This document shows positions 1 through 43,600 of a stretch of 45,860 nt of DNA, in pieces. The stretch's first letter is position 1. The number at the start of each line of letters is the position of its first letter. Under the pieces are notes generated by a model. The model saw only the letters and a list, made by a program, of their open reading frames with translations. It did not search any database and had not been told where the DNA came from. The position numbers were made by a program, and so were the translations under genes. Location: contig NZ_SAXY01000002.1 in assembly GCF_008016535.1 (NCBI RefSeq), positions 1 to 45,860 on the forward strand. The letters run 5' to 3'. The stretch comes from Brachyspira pilosicoli. Lineage in GTDB: Bacteria; Spirochaetota; Brachyspiria; Brachyspirales; Brachyspiraceae.

Positions 1-377
1 TATTGAAAACTTCACCTTTTAGGATACAATCTATACAGACCGATAATGGTATGGAATATACTTATCGCTGTATTAATACTCCTAAAATAAATATTTTTGA
101 TGAATATTGTCTTAAAAATAAATTAGAACGAAGATATATTCCTGTAGCAACACCAAGATATAACGGCGTAGTAGAAAGAGTACACGGCATAGACGAAAGA
201 GAATTTTATTCACGATTAAATAAAAATATCACAGTAGAATTATTAAGAGAAAAATTAAAAGAATATACACATTTTTATAACAATCAAAGATTGATTTCTT
301 CGTTAGGTTATATTACAATCAAAGAAAGAATCAAAAATATTATAGCAAGTAAAAGTACAATATCTATGGCTCCATGA
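1..377 (+). CDS. IS481-like transposase, C-terminal part (copy 1)
   Basis: The frame opens at base 3 and covers about the last 124 residues of a DDE transposase. The second catalytic Asp (QTDNG) and the Glu (GVVERVHG) are visible. The rest of the catalytic core and the N-terminal helix-turn-helix lie beyond the window edge. The stop codon TGA (375-377) overlaps an ATG at 374-376, so the element ends in an ATGA stop-start. It is nearly identical to the C-termini of the complete copies. Whether this copy is intact upstream cannot be judged here. Confidence 0.9.
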   Translation, partial: LKTSPFRIQSIQTDNGMEYTYRCINTPKINIFDEYCLKNKLERRYIPVATPRYNGVVERVHGIDEREFYSRLNKNITVELLREKLKEYTHFYNNQRLISSLGYITIKERIKNIIASKSTISMAP

Positions 378-2855: not shown

Positions 2856-3353
2856 ATGATTATAAGAGAAGTGCATATAACAGATGCTGAAAATGTTGTT
2901 GATTTTATAAAAAAAGTATCAGATGAGAGTGATTTTTTAATATGTGCATCTGATGAGAGGGAGCTTAGTGCAGAAAAAGAGAGTGAGTTTATACAGGCAA
3001 TAGAAAAATCTGTATTAGAGAAGATGTTTTTGTGCGAGATTGATGAAAAAATAGTTGGCATATGCAGTATTAGAGGAATTAATAAAAAGAGGGTAAAGCA
3101 TAGAGTTAGTTTAGGTATAAGTGTTTTAAAAGAGTATTGGGGCAGAGGTATAGCTTCAAAGCTGCTTGAACATACAATAAATTATTGCAAGGACAATAAT
3201 TTAAAAAAGATAGAGTTAAACGCAAGAGTTGATAATAATAGAGCTATAGGTTTATATAAAAAATTTGGCTTTGAAATAGAAGGGGAGATAAGAAATTTTT
3301 TTTATTTGAATGGGGTTTATTATAACTGCTATTTGTTTGGTCTTTTACTATAA
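2856..3353 (+). CDS. GNAT-family N-acetyltransferase
   Basis: The protein has about 165 residues with the GNAT fold. The acetyl-CoA pyrophosphate-binding loop is visible as WGRGIASKLL, followed by the late motif NNRAIGLYKKFGFEIEGEIR, as in RimI/RimJ-like and phosphinothricin-type acetyltransferases. I prefer ATG 2856 (MIIREV) to an in-frame TTG at 2844; neither has a strong ribosome-binding site. The substrate is unknown. It precedes the flagellar train by about 130 bases and is probably a separate transcription unit. Confidence 0.85.
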   Translation: MIIREVHITDAENVVDFIKKVSDESDFLICASDERELSAEKESEFIQAIEKSVLEKMFLCEIDEKIVGICSIRGINKKRVKHRVSLGISVLKEYWGRGIASKLLEHTINYCKDNNLKKIELNARVDNNRAIGLYKKFGFEIEGEIRNFFYLNGVYYNCYLFGLLL

Positions 3354-3485
3354 ATGATAATTTTTATATAGTTTTGTCTAAAAATAGTTAACATAATACT
3401 TGACTTTTTATTGTAATATGTTACCTTATATATTAACGGTATAATTCTAATTATATTTAATAAAAAAATTGGAGTATGATTAAAA

Positions 3486-4268
3486 ATGAAAAAGTTTCTC
3501 GCTGTTATTGTTGTATTATGCTTATTTGCTCCGATTACTGTTTATGCTCAAACACAAATACCTATACCGACAATAGATTTAAATGTTACACAAGCTCAAA
3601 CACCTCAGCAAGTTAGTTTAGGTCTTCAAATATTATTTTTGCTTACTATACTTTCACTTTCTCCGTCTATAATAATAATGACTACAAGTTTTGTGAGAGT
3701 TTCTATAGTTTTAAGTTTTGTTCAAAGAGCATTGTCATTACAAGAAACACCTCCAAGAGCATTAATAATGGGGCTTTCTTTGTTTTTAACATTTTTTATA
3801 ATGATGCCAACATTAACTCAAATAAATAATGACGCACTTCAGCCTTATTTAAACGGTACTATAGGTGTTAATGATTTATACAGCAGAGGAATACAGCCTA
3901 TAAGAATGTTTATGTTTAACTCTTTAAGAGGCGAAAACGGCATGAAGAGTTTGGACTTATTTTTAGGTATTAGCGACACTAATGTTAGATTAAGAGATAT
4001 TCAGTCTGTAGAAGATTTAGCAAAGATTCCAACTATAGTTGTTGTGCCTGCATTTATTATCAATGAACTTACTATAGCATTCAAGATGGGTATATATTTA
4101 TTTGTACCTTTTATAGTTATAGACTTGGTTGTAGCTTCAATATTAATGGCTATGGGTATGATAATGCTTCCTCCAATTATGATATCGTTGCCTTTAAAAA
4201 TAATATTGTTTGTAGCTGTTGATGGTTGGAAGCTATTAATATTACAGCTTGTACAAAGTTTTAATTAG
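3486..4268 (+). CDS. fliP: flagellar export gate protein FliP
   Basis: This 260-residue protein has a cleavable signal peptide (about residues 1-21, ending VYAQ) and four membrane segments, and matches FliP along its length (VRVSIVLSFVQRAL, PPRALIMGLSLFLTFFIMMP, PAFIINELTIAFKMG). FliP forms the pentameric core of the FliPQR gate through which flagellar axial proteins are exported. GGAG at 3471 is the ribosome-binding site. It is the first gene of the train; the 130-base leader contains TTGACT (3400) and TATAAT (3440), but not at standard spacing to each other. No fliO or fliM/fliN lies upstream. Confidence 0.97.
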   Translation: MKKFLAVIVVLCLFAPITVYAQTQIPIPTIDLNVTQAQTPQQVSLGLQILFLLTILSLSPSIIIMTTSFVRVSIVLSFVQRALSLQETPPRALIMGLSLFLTFFIMMPTLTQINNDALQPYLNGTIGVNDLYSRGIQPIRMFMFNSLRGENGMKSLDLFLGISDTNVRLRDIQSVEDLAKIPTIVVVPAFIINELTIAFKMGIYLFVPFIVIDLVVASILMAMGMIMLPPIMISLPLKIILFVAVDGWKLLILQLVQSFN

Positions 4269-18034: not shown

Positions 18035-18970
18035 ATGAAAAAAGATTATAGCACAGAATTTAAATTATTTATAGTGGATGAAGCATTAGAAACTAAAAAT
18101 ATTAAAAGATTTTTAAAGATAGAAGAAATATCTAAATCCACTTTTTATACTTGGCTTAAGAAATATAAAGCCACTGGAACTATTGCTAATTTTAGCACTA
18201 GACCGAAAACTTCTCCAAATATCTTTAATAATCAAAAAGCTATTAATTTAATTATTAAACTCTATACTGAAGAGTATAGGGGAAAACATTATATTAAAGC
18301 ATATTTGAACCGTGAAGGCATTAAGATAGGTGTTACAGCTATAGAGAATGTACTAAAAAGAAATAATCTTTGGAGATATAAAACAAAAAAGAAAAAGAAG
18401 CGATATGATAAACGAAAATTTGTCTCTAAAATACAAAAAGAAGGCAAAATAGTTCAAATAGATACGAAATATATCAAATTAGGCAGAAAAACAGTTTATC
18501 AATTCACAGCTGTCGATTTAGCTACTCGTTATAGTTGGAGGCAGATCTATGAAGATAAAACACCTTATAGTGCTTTATTTTTCTTAAAATATGTCTTAAA
18601 AACTTCACCTTTTAAGATACAATCTATACAGACCGATAATGGTATAGAATATACTTATCGCTGTATTAATACTCCTAAAATAAATATTTTTGATGAATAC
18701 TGCTTAAAAAATAAATTAGAGAGGAGATATATTCCTGTAGCTACACCAAGATACAACGGTGTAGTAGAAAGAGTACACGGTATAGACGAAAGAGAATTTT
18801 ATTCACGATTAAATAAAAATATCACAGTAGAATTATTGAGAGAAAAATTAAAAGAATATACACATTTTTATAACAATCAAAGATTGATTTCTTCGTTATT
18901 GTATATTACAATCAAAGAAAGAATCAAAAATATTATAGCAAGTAAAAGTACAATATCTATGGCTCCATGA
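18035..18970 (+). CDS. IS481-like DDE transposase (copy 2)
   Basis: This 311-residue transposase has an N-terminal helix-turn-helix (EISKSTFYTWLKKYKATG, residues ~31-48), a second helical DNA-binding part with basic linker (KTKKKKKRYDKRK), and an rve integrase core. The catalytic acidic residues are in QIDTKY, QTDNG and GVVERVHG. It differs from copy 3 at about 17 residues, all outside the catalytic triad, so both look intact. ATG follows AAGGAT. The stop TGA overlaps an ATG at the very end of the element. Confidence 0.95.
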   Translation: MKKDYSTEFKLFIVDEALETKNIKRFLKIEEISKSTFYTWLKKYKATGTIANFSTRPKTSPNIFNNQKAINLIIKLYTEEYRGKHYIKAYLNREGIKIGVTAIENVLKRNNLWRYKTKKKKKRYDKRKFVSKIQKEGKIVQIDTKYIKLGRKTVYQFTAVDLATRYSWRQIYEDKTPYSALFFLKYVLKTSPFKIQSIQTDNGIEYTYRCINTPKINIFDEYCLKNKLERRYIPVATPRYNGVVERVHGIDEREFYSRLNKNITVELLREKLKEYTHFYNNQRLISSLLYITIKERIKNIIASKSTISMAP

Positions 18971-26507: not shown

Positions 26508-27875
26508 TTACTTCTTAAATAACTCAAACAAAAACTTTAATGCTTTTATATTTTTGCTGTAAGGAGGATATTTAGTATTAAGTTCAAAATTATAACTCTT
26601 TTTTAATACTGTTGTTTTCTTTGTAAAGCATTCAAAACTATAATAACCGTGATACTCCCCTATTCCACTTGTTGACACTCCTCCAAAAGGAGCATTATTG
26701 TTTAATATATGGCTTATAGTATCATTTATAGATGCACCGCCAAAAGAAATATTGTTTAAGAAATGTTCTACAAAATTATTATCATCAGAAAAAACATACA
26801 TAGCCAATGGGTGAGTACATACTTTATCTATAATATCTCTTGCCTCTTCTTTAGTGTTGTAATAAATTATAGGGAAAATAGTCCCAAATATCTCATCTCT
26901 CATAACATTATTTTCTAAACTATTAGGCTCTATTAATGTAATTGCGAGAGATAATTTTTCATCATCATATTCACCGCCATATAATATTTTTCCGTCATTT
27001 AAATAACTTTTTAACCTATCATAATGACTTTTATTGATAATTCTGTTTAATTTTCTCTCATCTTCAAATAGTTTTATTTCTGTATTAAATGCCTCCAAAA
27101 ACTTATCTTTAATATTTTTGTTTACTAATAAATAATCAGGCGACACACATGTTTGCCCAGAATTAATAAACTTTCCCCATATTATTCTCTTTAGAGCCTT
27201 ATTGATATTTTTTATATTATCATCAACTATAACAGGGGATTTTCCTCCAAGCTCCAAAGTAAGAGAAGTTAAAAAATTAGAAGAATTATTCATTATAATT
27301 TTTCCAACCCTAGGAGAGCCTGTAAAAAATATTTTATCATATTCTATTTTTGTAGTATATTCTGCAGGAAAAGATTTATCTACAACAGCAATATACTATT
27401 CATTAAATGTTTCTTTTATAGAAGAATATATTACATCATAAACATTACTTGTTAATTGAGAAGGAAGTATTATAGAAGTATTACCTCCTGCAATAGAGCC
27501 TATAAGAGGAAGAAAAGTTAATTGCAAAGGATAATTCCAAGGCGATATTATAAGTGATACCCCATAAGGTTTATTCATTATAATTGTTTTAGAATCTATT
27601 GTGAGGAAATTTCTTTTAACTTTTTTATCTTTCATCCAAGTTCTTAATTTTTTTATAAACAAATTTATCTCATCAATTATAATAAATAATTCAGTGCCAA
27701 TAGCCTCAAACTCAAGTTTAAGCATATCCTTATTTAGAGCATTAATAAAATTAGCCTCATTTTTTATAATCATAGCCTTTAGTTTTTTTAGCTGCTCTAT
27801 TCTAAAAGAATATTCTAACATATCACCGCTTTTAAAAAACTCTCTTTGCTTATTTCTTAACTCTTCTATATACAT
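26508..27875 (-). pseudogene. class 3-type aldehyde dehydrogenase interrupted by an in-frame TAG
   Basis: One continuous minus-strand frame of 455 codons encodes an NAD(P)-dependent aldehyde dehydrogenase, broken only by TAG at 27396-27398 (codon 160). Before it are ISPWNYPLQLTFLPLIGSIA and a cofactor-binding SIILPSQLTS. After it come DKIFFTGSPRVGK, LELGGKSPVIV with the catalytic Glu, GQTCVSPDYLL with the catalytic Cys, and EIFGTIFPII. There is no frameshift. The family converts aldehydes to acids. The nonsense codon makes the full enzyme unlikely unless suppressed. The downstream part reopens at ATG 27293, too late to include the whole cofactor site. Confidence 0.9.
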
Positions 27876-34666: not shown

Positions 34667-35602
34667 TCATGGAGCCATAGATATTGTACTTTTACTTGCT
34701 ATAATATTTTTGATTCTTTCTTTGATTGTAATATAACCTAACGAAGAAATCAATCTTTGATTGTTATAAAAATGTGTATATTCTTTTAATTTTTCTCTCA
34801 ATAATTCTACTGTGATATTTTTATTTAATCGTGAATAAAATTCTCTTTCGTCTATGCCGTGTACTCTTTCTACTACGCCATTGTATCTTGGTGTTGCTAT
34901 AGGAATATATCTCCTCTCTAATTTATTTTTTAAGCAGTATTCATCAAAAATATTGATTTTAGGAGTATTAATACAGCGATAAGTATATTCCATACCATTG
35001 TCCGTTTGTATAGCCTGTATCTTAAAAGGTGAAGTTTTTAAGACATATTTTAAGAAAGATAAAGCACTAGAAGGTGTTTTATCTTCATAGATTTCTCTCC
35101 AACTATAACGTGTAGCTAAATCTACAGCAGTGAATTGATAAACTCTTTTTCTGCCTAATTTGATATATTTAGTGTCTATTTGAACTATTTTGCCTTCTTT
35201 TTGTATTTTAGAGACAAATTTTCGTTTATCATATCGCTTCTTTTTCTTTTTTATTTTGTATCTCCAAAGATTATTTCTTTTTAGTACATTCTCTATAGCT
35301 GTAACACCTATCTTAATGCCTTCACGATTTAGATATGCTTTAATGTAATGCTTACCTCGATATTCTTTAGTATAGAGTTCAATAATTAAATTAATAGCTT
35401 TTTGATTATTAAAGATATTTGGAGAAGTTTTTGGCTTAGTACTAAAATTAGCGACAGTTCCAGTGTATTTATATTTCTTAAGCCAAGTATAAAAAGTGGA
35501 TTTATTTATTTTTTCTATCTTTAAAAATCTTTTAATATTTTTAGTTTTTAATGCTTCATCCACTATAAATAATTTAAATTCTGTGCTATAATCTTTTTTC
35601 AT
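34667..35602 (-). CDS. IS481-like DDE transposase (copy 3)
   Basis: This 311-residue protein has the same architecture as copy 2: helix-turn-helix (KINKSTFYTWLKKYKYTG), basic linker, then an integrase core with Asp in QIDTKY, Asp in QTDNG and Glu in GVVERVHG. About 17 substitutions separate it from copy 2, several in the helix-turn-helix and linker. No stop or frameshift is present. It ends with the same ATGA stop-start as the others. Confidence 0.95.
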   Translation of the reverse strand: MKKDYSTEFKLFIVDEALKTKNIKRFLKIEKINKSTFYTWLKKYKYTGTVANFSTKPKTSPNIFNNQKAINLIIELYTKEYRGKHYIKAYLNREGIKIGVTAIENVLKRNNLWRYKIKKKKKRYDKRKFVSKIQKEGKIVQIDTKYIKLGRKRVYQFTAVDLATRYSWREIYEDKTPSSALSFLKYVLKTSPFKIQAIQTDNGMEYTYRCINTPKINIFDEYCLKNKLERRYIPIATPRYNGVVERVHGIDEREFYSRLNKNITVELLREKLKEYTHFYNNQRLISSLGYITIKERIKNIIASKSTISMAP

Positions 35603-38820: not shown

Positions 38821-39858
38821 TTATTTAGAATAATTATCAAGCTCATTACAAAATTTTACAAAGTCTTCATAAACAGTTATAGACTGCAAATATCTTAAAT
38901 ATATCATTAACCCAGAATCTATATGCTTAAAAAACTCAACATCCCATAGCTCTGTTTCTACAAATCCTCTTTTATAATCATATTTATAATATTCAAACTT
39001 ATAATAAAATGTCCTAAAATATTTTACTTTAGCAAAACATAATTTATATATTCTAAATATTATTCCAATAGTATCATTAGTGTTAAAAAACTTATCTGTA
39101 AAAATTAATGCTTTATGTGAGTTTTCTTTTTCCTGATACCATTTATCATTTTCTTTTATTAGTTCATATTTTTTTATTATATTTTCTTTATCAAGAGAAT
39201 ATAGGGAGTTATAATTATAATCATATCTTACTATTTTGTTATTATAATCTATATCCTCACATATTATATAAAATGTTTTATTATCTGTATGAATATTTAT
39301 TTTTATATTAGAATCGTTATAGTTTTCATCTACTCTAAAAACATCATATTCTGATGGGCAAGCATTAAAATGTGTATCACATTCTATATGTATTACATTT
39401 TTAAATATTATCTCTATATCATGATAACAAGATAAATCATTGCTTCCTACTATATGCAAGTCTATTTTATAATCATTAATCATAAAATCTAACCACATAT
39501 TGTCTTTAATTGATTCATTAATTTTTTTTAATGTATTTTTTGCTTCTATAATATTAATAGTACTTATATAATTATAAAATTCATTTTCTAAATATGTAAT
39601 ATTATTAAAAGCTAATTTATCTTTATGTTTAATTATTTTTATGTTTATATTATTTTCTTTACTAAAGAATAATTCATATTTAAAATCATTATTTGTTATT
39701 GTTATTTTATCATCTAATTCAGTAATATCTGCTTTATTATTGTTTTTTTCTGCAATATGTTTTGCTAATTTATATAATATAGTTCTATTATTTTCTTTTG
39801 AATTATTAGCTATATTTATTATTTTATTATCATTATCAAGAAATAGTATTTTATACAT
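38821..39858 (-). CDS. unknown Asn/Ile/Tyr-rich protein
   Basis: I do not recognise this protein of about 345 residues. It is soluble, extremely rich in Asn, Ile, Lys, Asp and Tyr, has no signal peptide and looks like alternating beta strands (ILFLDNDNKIINIAN, NIHTDNKTFYIICEDIDYN). The open frame extends upstream to 40008, but I prefer ATG 39858. It has AAGG at 9 bases, and the extra 50 residues translate A+T-rich spacer. It has no obvious operon partner. Base use is even more A+T-biased than its neighbours. Confidence 0.7.
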   Translation of the reverse strand: MYKILFLDNDNKIINIANNSKENNRTILYKLAKHIAEKNNNKADITELDDKITITNNDFKYELFFSKENNINIKIIKHKDKLAFNNITYLENEFYNYISTINIIEAKNTLKKINESIKDNMWLDFMINDYKIDLHIVGSNDLSCYHDIEIIFKNVIHIECDTHFNACPSEYDVFRVDENYNDSNIKINIHTDNKTFYIICEDIDYNNKIVRYDYNYNSLYSLDKENIIKKYELIKENDKWYQEKENSHKALIFTDKFFNTNDTIGIIFRIYKLCFAKVKYFRTFYYKFEYYKYDYKRGFVETELWDVEFFKHIDSGLMIYLRYLQSITVYEDFVKFCNELDNYSK

Positions 39859-40070
39859 ATATAATAGCCTTAATATTTTAATAGTATATTGATTATATAT
39901 GAAAATAGTATTTATTGAAATAGTTAATTTATTTAATTTCCTTGAAATATTTTGTAAATAGACTAAAATAATATAAAATATATATATAAATAGGGAACTT
40001 TTTTCCATTTATATACGTCTAATATTTTGAATAAAGAGATATATTTGATTAAAGAGGTTAAGGTTAGTAC

Positions 40071-40517
40071 ATGAGAAAAAGGCTTATATTATTATTTATA
40101 TTATTATTTTCATCACTCCTTATTGCACAGCCTCCTGCACCTAGGCATGGCAGAGGAATGGGCGGCGGCAGAGGAATGCATAGAGGAACTGATAAATTGG
40201 GTCCGGATGCTTTACGATTTTTACAAATGGCAGGCATTGTATTAACAGAAGAGCAAACAAAAAAGGTTTATGATATAGCTATTAAATTTGTTCAAGAAGA
40301 AGAAAACATTAGACTAGAAATAGAAAAAATAGACTATAATATAAGAGAAGAACTTATTAAGGATAATCCAGATAGAAATATGTTGAGAAATCTTATTAAA
40401 TCTAAAAAAGATTATGAAGCGGAGAGAGATTATTTAAAAATGGTTCGGGATTTAGATATAATAGATGTATTAACACCTCATCAAAGATCTCAGCTTCTCA
40501 ATTGCAAAATGAGGTAA
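40071..40517 (+). CDS. Spy/CpxP-like periplasmic protein
   Basis: This 148-residue protein has a signal peptide (about residues 1-20, ending LLIAQ), a Gly/His/Met/Arg-rich segment (RHGRGMGGGRGMHRG) and a helical body with the LTxxQ-like motif twice (LTEEQTKK, LTPHQRSQL). This matches the Spy/CpxP/zinc-resistance-associated group of periplasmic chaperones and metal sensors. It sits 9 bases before an ECF sigma gene and its anti-sigma, suggesting it feeds envelope or metal stress information to them. Confidence 0.8.
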   Translation: MRKRLILLFILLFSSLLIAQPPAPRHGRGMGGGRGMHRGTDKLGPDALRFLQMAGIVLTEEQTKKVYDIAIKFVQEEENIRLEIEKIDYNIREELIKDNPDRNMLRNLIKSKKDYEAERDYLKMVRDLDIIDVLTPHQRSQLLNCKMR

Positions 40518-40526
40518 TTATTTTTT

Positions 40527-41081
40527 ATGAGTGGTGTAGAGATGGCATTTGATGAAAATAATTTTTTAGAAGCTTTTAAAAATGGAGATGAAGCTGCTTT
40601 CAAAGAACTTATGGAGGCTTATAAAAAACCTTTGATTAATCTAGTATATTCTCTTGTTTCTAATTATGATGAGGCAGAGGAGATTATACAGGATGTTTTT
40701 GTTAGCTTTTATATAAAGAGAGAGAGCTTTGAGGGACGGTCTAAGATTTATACTTGGCTTTATAGGGTTTCTTTTAATAGGACAGTTGACCATATAAGAA
40801 AAAAAGAAAGAGAAAAGAGATACAGACTTAAAGAATACAGAAATGCCCAGATGCAGGAAGCTCATGATAATGATAGTATAAATAAAATAATTGTAGCTGA
40901 GAGTTTATCTAAGTTGGAGGATGATTTTAGAATACCTCTTATGATGGCAGAATATGAGAATTATTCTTATACTGAGATATCTGAGAAATTGGACTTGCCT
41001 ATTAATACCGTGAGAACAAGGATATTTAGGGCAAGAAAGAAATTATTAGAAATAATAAAAAAAATGGGGGTAACTTTATGA
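40527..41081 (+). CDS. ECF-type RNA polymerase sigma factor
   Basis: This 184-residue sigma-70 family ECF factor has region 2 (EAFKNGDEAAFKELMEAYKKPLINLVYSLV, DEAEEIIQDVFVSFYIKR, WLYRVSFNRTVDHIRKK) and region 4 (LEDDFRIPLMMAEYENYSYTEISEKLDLPINTVRTRIFRARKKL). It should direct an envelope-stress-type regulon. An internal ATG at 40542 is an alternative start. The TGA stop overlaps the anti-sigma start (ATGA), so the two are translationally coupled. Confidence 0.93.
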   Translation: MSGVEMAFDENNFLEAFKNGDEAAFKELMEAYKKPLINLVYSLVSNYDEAEEIIQDVFVSFYIKRESFEGRSKIYTWLYRVSFNRTVDHIRKKEREKRYRLKEYRNAQMQEAHDNDSINKIIVAESLSKLEDDFRIPLMMAEYENYSYTEISEKLDLPINTVRTRIFRARKKLLEIIKKMGVTL

Positions 41082-41551
41082 ACAACACACATGAGTATTA
41101 TGAAATGCTTGTCAGCAGATATAAAGATAATGATTTAAATGATGAAGAAATAGCAGAAATGGAAGAGCATTTGCATGAATGTGCTAAGTGCAGAAAGTTT
41201 AAAGAAGAAATTTTTGCTATGTCATCTATTTTAACGGGTAAGATGCCTATAGAAGTTAATAATACCAAAAAGAAATTTAAATTTGTACCTTATATTGCTT
41301 TTATAGCAGCTATGTTATTGATATTTGTTGGAATAGGTGTAGTCATTAACAACAATAATAATACAGCATCTGCTCCAATAGTAGCTTCAACAGCTGTTTC
41401 ACAAGAACAACAAGAAGAGAATGTATATAGCGAAGATGGCTACAGTGATTATGCACTTTTATCTACATACTTTGATTATGCTGAAGAAAATCAAAGCACT
41501 GAAGAAGACAGCATAACAGTATTATCTGCTTATATGGCTTATATGGAATAA
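41078..41551 (+). CDS. membrane-bound zinc-finger anti-sigma factor
   Basis: This 157-residue protein has an N-terminal anti-sigma domain with the zinc-binding motif H-x3-C-x2-C (His31, Cys35, Cys38), one transmembrane helix (~68-90) and a low-complexity, acidic C-terminal tail (~65 residues) outside the membrane. It probably holds the ECF factor inactive until a signal releases it. The stop is only 3 bases from the convergent histidine kinase stop. Confidence 0.85.
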   Translation: MNNTHEYYEMLVSRYKDNDLNDEEIAEMEEHLHECAKCRKFKEEIFAMSSILTGKMPIEVNNTKKKFKFVPYIAFIAAMLLIFVGIGVVINNNNNTASAPIVASTAVSQEQQEENVYSEDGYSDYALLSTYFDYAEENQSTEEDSITVLSAYMAYME

Positions 41552-41554
41552 AAA

Positions 41555-43093
41555 TTAATTTTTGGAAGTATTTACAACTCCAAACGGTATTCTTAATTTT
41601 ACTATTGTACCAGCACCTTCAGAACTATCTATTGCAATGGCACCTTGCATAGTATCAAGAAGGTCTTTAACTACAGATAAACCTATTCCTATGCCGCCGT
41701 ATTCTCTTTCAAATCTTGAGTCGCTTTGATAGAATGGTATAAAGATTTTCTTTAGTTTGTTTTGCTTTATTCCCTTGCCTGTATCTTTTACTGTAATTTC
41801 TATTTCATTTGGCATGATGTTTTGCATAGAATGATAATTAAATAAGTCTGGTGATAAATCTATAACTTTAGTTTCAATAGGATCAAGCATTCTAACATTT
41901 ATAGATATTGTGCCAGACTTTGTAAATTTAAATGCATTAGAGATTATACCTTCCATTATTAATCTAAATCTCTCTTTGTATCCTATTAAAGTTTTACAAT
42001 TTTCTTCTATATTGATTTCTGTTTTAATATCTTTTGGGTATATAATTTTATATCCTTCTATTATTGAGTTTAATTCATCTTCAACATTAAATTCAGAAGT
42101 ATAACTATAGCTCTCATCATCTTTAATAGCAATTTGTATTAAATTATTATTATTGTCATATAGTTTTTTTATACTCCTAGATATAACATTAATAGCCTCT
42201 TCTTTTTTATCTTCAGCAAGAGTTTTTCTTTTTAATAAGTTAATATATCCCATTATCTCTGTAAATGGATGTCTTAGTTCATGAGTGATAGTTGCCTTAA
42301 ACTCTCTTATAAGCTTATTATAATAATTAACACTTTTTTTCAAAGAGTTTATTTCATTAAATAAAGAAACCAATCTTTTTTGTAAAATATCGGTATGCTT
42401 TTTTTGCTGTTCATAGAGTATTGAAAAATAAAGTCTGTTTAAGCCTATTTCTGTACCTGCATTTTTTATTATGCCTTCTTTGCACCACTTTATTGCCTCA
42501 GTAAACTCTACAAAAAAAGAATCAATGTTCTCTTCCATAACAGAACCGTCTGTTTTCACTTTTTTAGGTTTTAATCCTGTTATATCGCATGTAGCAATAT
42601 TTATTCTCTCTGTAATAATTCCAGAAGAGCTGTAATACTGATGACCTAAAACTTTAATATTTTTTATATTAGCACTATAGCCTGTTTCTTCTTCTAATTC
42701 CCTTTGAGCACATTTTCTTATACCCATATTGCTGTCTTTCATATTAAGTTCATCTTCTTCAAGCATTCCAGCAGGAAACTCTAAAAATGACATAATATTT
42801 TCATCTATTTCCTCAGCAGTTTTGTTATTTAATACTTTTTCTTTATAATAAACTACGGGTCTGAAATTTTTAATCATAAGTACATGCATTTGATTATTTA
42901 TATAAGTATATGGAACTATTATAACAGCATCAGAGCCTTTTCTATTAATGATGTCGCAATTATATTCTTTTGAAAAACTGCCGTCATCATATTCATTTAT
43001 AGCTATAAATCTTTCTAGTGTAACAAAACCAGTGTCCAATTTTATTTCAGGAGATTTATGAAAAAATTTAGTATCTTTGACTTTTTTAGGCAT
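41555..43093 (-). CDS. cytoplasmic Nudix-histidine kinase fusion
   Basis: This 512-residue protein has an N-terminal Nudix domain of ADP-ribose-pyrophosphatase type (~50-215; Gly109, Glu115 and RELEEETGY at 131-139, with an 8-residue insert inside the Nudix box). A coiled coil follows (~225-265), then a HisKA domain with phospho-acceptor His271 in THELRHP and an HATPase domain (N-box Asn386, G1 DTGKGI, G2 YGGIGIGLSVVK). No membrane segment is present, so it should sense a cytoplasmic nucleotide-type metabolite. No response regulator is adjacent. It follows an RsbW-like ATPase gene by 24 bases. Confidence 0.9.
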   Translation of the reverse strand: MPKKVKDTKFFHKSPEIKLDTGFVTLERFIAINEYDDGSFSKEYNCDIINRKGSDAVIIVPYTYINNQMHVLMIKNFRPVVYYKEKVLNNKTAEEIDENIMSFLEFPAGMLEEDELNMKDSNMGIRKCAQRELEEETGYSANIKNIKVLGHQYYSSSGIITERINIATCDITGLKPKKVKTDGSVMEENIDSFFVEFTEAIKWCKEGIIKNAGTEIGLNRLYFSILYEQQKKHTDILQKRLVSLFNEINSLKKSVNYYNKLIREFKATITHELRHPFTEIMGYINLLKRKTLAEDKKEEAINVISRSIKKLYDNNNNLIQIAIKDDESYSYTSEFNVEDELNSIIEGYKIIYPKDIKTEINIEENCKTLIGYKERFRLIMEGIISNAFKFTKSGTISINVRMLDPIETKVIDLSPDLFNYHSMQNIMPNEIEITVKDTGKGIKQNKLKKIFIPFYQSDSRFEREYGGIGIGLSVVKDLLDTMQGAIAIDSSEGAGTIVKLRIPFGVVNTSKN

Positions 43094-43117: not shown

Positions 43118-43600
43118 TTATATATTCTTATTGAATTTTTTAATGAGCGTAATAACATTTCCTTTTTTATTATGTTTTACTTCATCAAAATAGGATTTTA
43201 TTATTATAATTCCTCTTCCGCTTTCTCTAGCGAAACCATCATCTTTAATTGCTTTTAATGCTCTTTTTATATTAAAGCCTTCTCCATTATCTTTTACTTT
43301 AATTATGATAATTTTATCATTTTCATTTATATCTAAAGTTAATTCTATATTAGTATTTTTTGCAAGCTCGCTTTTTAGTAATTCTTTTAATTTTTTATTA
43401 TATATATTTTTTTGAAGCCACTCTTTTTTTTGTTCATACAATATATTGAGATTGCCGTGCTCTATGGCATTTATTATTACTTCATATAATGCTGATGAGA
43501 AAAGGTCAGTATCTATTATGTATTTATTTATTTTTAGACATATATGTTCTATGAGTTTGCTTATATTATCTAAATCATTATCTAGTATATACTTTTCCAC
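43118..43600 (-). CDS. RsbW-like ATP-binding protein (GHKL)
   Basis: This 160-residue single-domain GHKL ATPase has an N-box ALYEVIINAIEHGN, G1 VKDNGEGFN and G2 ARESGRGIIIIKSYFDEV, as in anti-sigma-factor serine kinases of the RsbW/SpoIIAB type. GTG 43600 is the start, with AGGG about 10 bases upstream. It precedes the Nudix-histidine kinase in the same operon. No RsbV-type antagonist is visible nearby, so its partner is unknown; the neighbouring ECF sigma is one candidate only by proximity. Confidence 0.87.
   Translation of the reverse strand: MEKYILDNDLDNISKLIEHICLKINKYIIDTDLFSSALYEVIINAIEHGNLNILYEQKKEWLQKNIYNKKLKELLKSELAKNTNIELTLDINENDKIIIIKVKDNGEGFNIKRALKAIKDDGFARESGRGIIIIKSYFDEVKHNKKGNVITLIKKFNKNI

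Follow-up and report, generated by a model that had tools for sequence, protein, structure and literature searches.

Architecture of the fusion gene

The window analyzed here, a 45,860-nucleotide stretch of contig NZ_SAXY01000002.1 of Brachyspira pilosicoli, carries on its reverse strand one open reading frame in which a Nudix domain is followed by the HisKA and HATPase domains of a histidine kinase. The features of this gene are as follows.

41555..43093 (-), Nudix-HisKA-HATPase fusion gene, 512 aa from its ATG (Pfam, NCBIfam, conservation)
42431..43093 (-), Nudix module, residues 1-221, comprising an N-terminal strand domain and the Nudix fold (AlphaFold and structural matches)
42677..42769 (-), Nudix box, residues 109-139, with catalytic E132, E135, and E136 intact (invariant in 31/31)
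42725..42748 (-), Nudix-box insert, about residues 116-123 (+8 relative to GX5EX7REUXEEXGU)
42455..42463 (-), N211-A212-G213, the site of the D-x-K motif of NDP-sugar hydrolases, where the last Nudix helix begins (alignment)
42308..42460 (-), linker helix, residues 212-262, the last Nudix helix running into the DHp helix (AlphaFold; heptads)
42131..42307 (-), HisKA (DHp), residues 263-321, with the phospho-acceptor H271, E272, and H275 (Pfam, alignment)
41582..41977 (-), HATPase_c, residues 373-504, with N/G1/F/G2 motifs (Pfam, motif inspection)
41798..41884 (-), family-specific part of the ATPase domain, about residues 404-432, containing PDLFNYH (invariant in both of the order's families)

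An earlier, sequence-only reading had described a single frame joining Nudix, HisKA, and HATPase domains, and Pfam bears this out with three matches above their curated cut-offs: NUDIX at residues 105-154 (8.9e-6), HisKA (PF00512) at 263-321 (5.4e-8), and HATPase_c (PF02518) at 373-504 (9.1e-20). The NCBIfam model TIGR00052 (YffH/AdpP) aligns to residues 19-220 at 7.7e-18, scoring 66.6 bits and thus remaining below its cut-off of 79.55. The protein is soluble and has no transmembrane segment, since its highest 19-residue hydropathy is only 1.16, and no Pfam match to PAS, GAF, or any further sensory domain is observed; on both points the same reading had been correct. The ortholog of B. pilosicoli T010 shares 97% identity across the Nudix part. 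The source genome is 2.76 Mb in size.

Two other observations concern the window itself. A transposase-like ORF of 311 aa (MKKDYSTEFKLFIV...; integrase-type by eye) is found at 18035-18970 (+), 34667-35602 (-), and 3-377 (+), one of these copies being cut by the contig end, and it also lies beside other loci of the source genome (L181, L184, and L188). At 26508-27875 (-), an aldehyde-dehydrogenase-like gene (by eye) consists of two ORFs of 159 and 261 aa, perhaps as the result of a frameshift; L077 contains a single 458-aa ORF with a similar start.

Conservation and distribution

The fusion is present as an open, single-copy frame, linker included, in all 29 Brachyspiraceae genomes and the two available from a second family, and thus in 31 of 31 genomes sampled from an order that includes intestinal spirochetes of people and animals. 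The Nudix part (dN/dS, 0.042-0.069), the linker (0.018-0.041 in three of four pairs, the fourth being saturated), and the kinase part (0.041-0.064) are all under strong purifying selection (0.02-0.07 overall). Because the fusion is open in every one of the 31 genomes and dN/dS is low in all parts, a product of chance or an artefact of the frame can be dismissed. That the locus holds two separate genes, or a mere error of annotation, has a negligible probability given the uninterrupted frame in these genomes, with no internal stop and with a linker under selection; nothing was found that would favor it.

No fusion was recovered from the remaining 362 sampled Spirochaetota genomes, where the matches are frames of 175 to 220 aa, a size fitting free-standing Nudix proteins. 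The genome-wide contig scan employed two short patterns only, and the restriction to this order is claimed for sampled Spirochaetota and not for other phyla. The fusion is the only TIGR00052-type protein found in every family genome. Being universal and single copy in the order's sampled genomes, it probably controls something basic there. Candidate origins on mobile elements were rejected: no phage match spans 80% of the protein and the Nudix domain is encoded on no viral contig, and the best plasmid matches are kinase-type proteins of 22 to 31% identity. Similarly, a kinase of G068 considered as a Nudix-less ortholog turned out to be a membrane kinase carrying HELKTP and can be no more than a distant cousin.

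The Nudix domain and its insert

Structure prediction of the Nudix region, as proposed by the sequence-only reading, yields a Nudix fold: residues 1-262 are modeled by AlphaFold with a mean pLDDT of 91.7, and the closest structural matches of the module are E. coli NudK, a GDP-mannose hydrolase (Z 19.5), Bd-NDPSase (19.0), and E. coli ADPRase (18.5), three scores that are tied within the error of Z. The Nudix signature GX5EX7REUXEEXGU is complete, and the spacing between its first E and RE is longer by 8 residues. The acidic residues had already been read as kept, and we observe that R78, E105, G109, E132, E135, E136, and E162 are invariant across the 31 fused proteins and 20 free-standing relatives. 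The domain appears to be of the ADP-ribose/NDP-sugar pyrophosphatase type and to be catalytically equipped.

The 8-residue insert within the Nudix box is likewise real. The box excess is +8 in 28 of the 31 fused proteins, +9 in one, and +5 in two, and in the AlphaFold model the insert is a confidently modeled loop or turn immediately before the catalytic helix. It had been suggested to lower catalysis and to favor sensing, a suggestion that we do not uphold. Since the free-standing relatives carry a box insert too (+4/+5 in 20/20) and the catalytic glutamates are invariant, the insert does not mark a loss of catalysis that came with the kinase.

These relatives belong to the phylum of L078, a locus of a Deltaproteobacteria-labeled genome (G393). 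The phylum is probably Myxococcota, and 78 of its 379 genomes (about a fifth) contain Nudix-profile matches, which are free-standing where examined and about 225 to 290 aa long. None of the 20 free-standing loci examined showed a kinase motif in frame, and the L078 relative was rejected as a second fusion, its ORF stopping at 267 aa. In a maximum-likelihood tree, a single clade (100/99) holds the fused proteins together with the free-standing Nudix proteins of this phylum and leaves out 18 other Nudix proteins; the fused proteins all fall to one side of a branch (86/86), which fits a single fusion event.

The D-x-K site and the putative ligand

NDP-sugar hydrolases read the sugar through an Asp-x-Lys motif (D-x-K) at the N terminus of the last helix, whereas ADP-ribose hydrolases are without it, a rule derived from three structures; ADP-ribose hydrolases also have a Pro that follows the box Gly by 15 residues (PMC4629899). 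We observe both D and K at this site in 20/20 free-standing relatives and N-[A/G]-[G/A/V] in 31/31 fused proteins. D-x-K is also present in several other Nudix proteins of the comparison set, and profile alignment matches the N211 site to RDGKT of NudK and to DNAAS of Klebsiella ADPRase. At the ADPRase Pro position (157), 5 of the 31 fused proteins have Pro and 26 have Ser, with Ser in Brachyspira itself.

The loss of D-x-K, which the sequence-only reading had missed, is a more telling change than the insert. It goes with the fusion. Since the rule stems from three structures and other Nudix proteins of the set also have D-x-K, it is suggestive rather than proof, and it could simply mean that a preferred substrate was lost. 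Going by these few residues, ADP-ribose or a close relative would be the most likely ligand and an NDP-sugar the next.

Linker helix and kinase domains

The N211 site caps a helix that is modeled unbroken into the kinase. One helix covers residues 212-261 in the model of residues 1-262 and residues 212-287, past H271, in the full-length model, where a mean pLDDT of 65.6 leaves helix continuity beyond residue 262 weakly supported. Hydrophobic residues occupy 72% of the linker's heptad a/d positions.

The key kinase residues, including His271, had been visible from the sequence, and the kinase boxes are present as H271-E272, N386, D437-x-G439-x-G441, and G467-G471, with N, G1, F, and G2 intact. 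HELxHP is invariant in 11 aligned members spanning both families, and the PDLFNYH stretch has a partial counterpart in a membrane kinase from another spirochete (L160). The residue at H+4 is His (H275) in 11/11 aligned family members, and the three other recognizable HisKA kinases of the source genome keep T/N there. In a study of four HisKA kinases, phosphatase activity depended on Thr/Asn at H+4 and kinase activity did not, and His was not among the H+4 substitutions reported (PMC3510030). With H275 in place of the Thr/Asn on which dephosphorylation of the regulator depends, the fusion protein is predicted to act only as a kinase.

Neighboring genes and candidate partners

The fusion gene is bordered by the following genes.

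43118..43600 (-), RsbW-like HATPase_c_2 gene, 160 aa (PF13581, 3.9e-11), 24 bases upstream of the fusion
40071-41551 (+), Metal_resist/Spy-like, ECF sigma factor, and zf-HC2 anti-sigma genes in a row, downstream of and convergent with the fusion

In 28 of the 29 family genomes the RsbW-like gene adjoins the fusion; G019 and the second family have no such gene at this place. Several relatives (e.g., L159:3622-4068) carry a convergent RsbW-like gene just past the fusion gene, and at L183:3703-4906 (-) (G000:C68) a second RsbW-like gene adjoins a PP2C-like gene. ORFs that resemble the sigma/anti-sigma cluster by sequence are also found at the site in G019 (L088) and in a second genus (L076). Further along, at 38821-40008 (-), lies an ORF of 395 aa for which Pfam gave no match at 0.1; a 345-aa ORF resembling it (L088:959-1996) is located near the same sigma-factor cluster.

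No response regulator linked to the fusion gene was found in its surroundings, and the source genome contains 15 receiver matches. One of its receiver proteins, encoded outside the window (L090:646-1923 (+), G000:C53; 426 aa), joins a receiver (PF00072, 4e-32) to LpxC (PF03331, 3.8e-69), the committed step of lipid A synthesis, and places this step under receiver control; a search of the literature by title and abstract returned no description of such a REC-LpxC fusion. In addition, a single-domain receiver gene (L187:4159-4521 (-), G000:C92) overlaps a GalT-like uridylyltransferase gene (3161-4159 (-)) by one base. It is tempting to see in these two cases a tie between receivers and nucleotide-sugar enzymes, which here is a co-occurrence in one genome. 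A REC-SpoIIE (PP2C) phosphatase gene (L182:5863-7029 (-), G000:C75) abuts FtsW/RodA and PBP2-type genes.

Proposed mechanism and alternatives

We propose, with moderate confidence, that the protein is a cytosolic dimeric HisKA kinase sensing an NDP-X ligand through a catalytically equipped Nudix input domain. HisKA kinases dimerize through DHp. The Nudix domain, with its catalytic residues in place, probably hydrolyzes its ADP-ribose-like or NDP-sugar ligand. Hydrolases of this type that act on ADP-ribose or NDP-sugars form dimers in which the N-terminal domains are swapped and the ligand sites shared (PMC4629899), whereas for an output domain the precedent is AraR: there the Nudix dimer brings about a ligand-driven rotation of the output domain (PMC4666351). 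By analogy, we infer a coupling that would lead from ligand to helix cap, to autophosphorylation, and to hydrolytic reset. The NDP-X ligand would bind between two swapped Nudix protomers and shift the region around N211, which caps the last Nudix helix; the shifted cap would turn or tilt the unbroken helix that continues as DHp helix 1, and this movement would change autophosphorylation of H271. The phosphoryl group may then pass to a response regulator encoded elsewhere, and hydrolysis of the ligand would reset or end the signal. What the sequence-only reading had made of this protein thus survives as regards the architecture, the lack of further sensory domains, and the broad notion that a nucleotide-diphosphate ligand governs the kinase; its argument from the insert falls away.

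A variant compatible with this explanation is that the sensor reads a UDP-, GDP-, or ADP-sugar and reports on the supply of envelope sugars. The top structural match, NudK, is a GDP-mannose hydrolase (though it ties with ADPRase within the error of Z), the NDP-sugar motif is present in the free-standing relatives, and the genome encodes both the REC-LpxC fusion and the receiver overlapping a GalT-like gene. However, the signature D-x-K is gone from all 31 fused proteins, and the link to those two receivers is one of co-occurrence in a single genome, so that we hold this variant to be plausible but rather doubtful. An elaboration joining several of these elements, namely a kinase-only sensor that would reset itself by destroying its own ADP-ribose or nucleotide-sugar signal, with the former sugar-reading site as cap and an envelope or nucleotide-sugar output such as REC-LpxC, is speculative and, taken as a whole, unlikely.

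A different possibility is that a housekeeping ADP-ribose/NDP-sugar hydrolase is tethered to a kinase that is controlled otherwise, by a protein partner or the ATP level, in which case the fusion would only co-regulate or co-localize the two activities. The catalytic residues are all kept, and enzyme activity could explain the conservation of what is the sole AdpP-type enzyme of every family genome. Nevertheless, the linker is constrained like the domains (dN/dS as given above), a continuous Nudix-to-DHp helix is predicted, no other sensory domain is present, and D-x-K is altered in every fused member and in 0/20 free-standing relatives; we consider simple tethering improbable. The output side has an alternative of its own, in which the kinase, its RsbW-like neighbor, and the REC-SpoIIE phosphatase would form a partner-switching circuit in place of a classical regulator. 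The RsbW-like gene stands directly upstream in nearly all family genomes and a REC-SpoIIE (PP2C) protein is indeed encoded, but G019 and both second-family genomes keep the fusion without such a neighbor, and the REC-SpoIIE gene is located among rod-shape genes. We give such a circuit a small chance. The preferred reading remains the Nudix-sensing kinase that signals to a regulator encoded elsewhere.

Significance

Histidine kinases read many ligands, yet we found no account of input by a catalytically intact nucleotide-diphosphate hydrolase. If the proposed reading is true, the state of NAD/ADP-ribose or of nucleotide sugars would feed directly into two-component output, through a sensor that also clears its own signal. 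Bacteria of this order probably rely on a nucleotide-metabolizing enzyme for sensing in the cytoplasm. The sequence-only reading had named no characterized protein of this design, and we found neither a characterized Nudix-histidine kinase nor a description of one in the literature searched, in which subscription papers are little covered; an account elsewhere is possible.

Comparison with known systems

E. coli NudK and Bdellovibrio Bd3179, the latter an NDP-sugar hydrolase, share with the fusion protein the Nudix fold and N-terminal strand domain, the metal-binding glutamates, and the L9 base. Both are free enzymes with D-x-K, whereas the fusion protein is without this motif and is followed by a kinase; NudK also has no insert in its Nudix box. 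The ADPRase of E. coli and Klebsiella (NudF/AdpP) is alike in fold (Z 18.5), in the E162-type base, and in the N-A-x at the last helix. It is, however, a free enzyme without insert, with about 25% identity over the structural alignment, and TIGR00052 stays below its cut-off in the fusion protein.

NrtR and AraR resemble the fusion protein in that they are dimers whose Nudix domain senses a ligand and is coupled to an output domain. Their output is DNA binding, and the Nudix boxes of these sensors are broken, with several of the proteins inactive (PMC4666351), whereas the box of the fusion is intact and no HTH is present. On the kinase side, soluble HisKA kinases such as CrdS and the HK853 catalytic core have the H-box and the N, G1, F, and G2 motifs in common with it, as well as the DHp and CA folds; the fusion differs from them in its Nudix input, the His at H+4, and the PDLFNYH stretch.

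The free-standing clade of the L078 phylum comprises the closest relatives by tree, which share the box insert and mostly a DGSxxEE-like motif. They differ in being without a kinase motif in the 20 loci and in retaining D-x-K in 20/20. Together, the fused and free-standing clades offer a ready comparison of enzyme and sensor with one clear candidate switch, from D-x-K to N-A-G.
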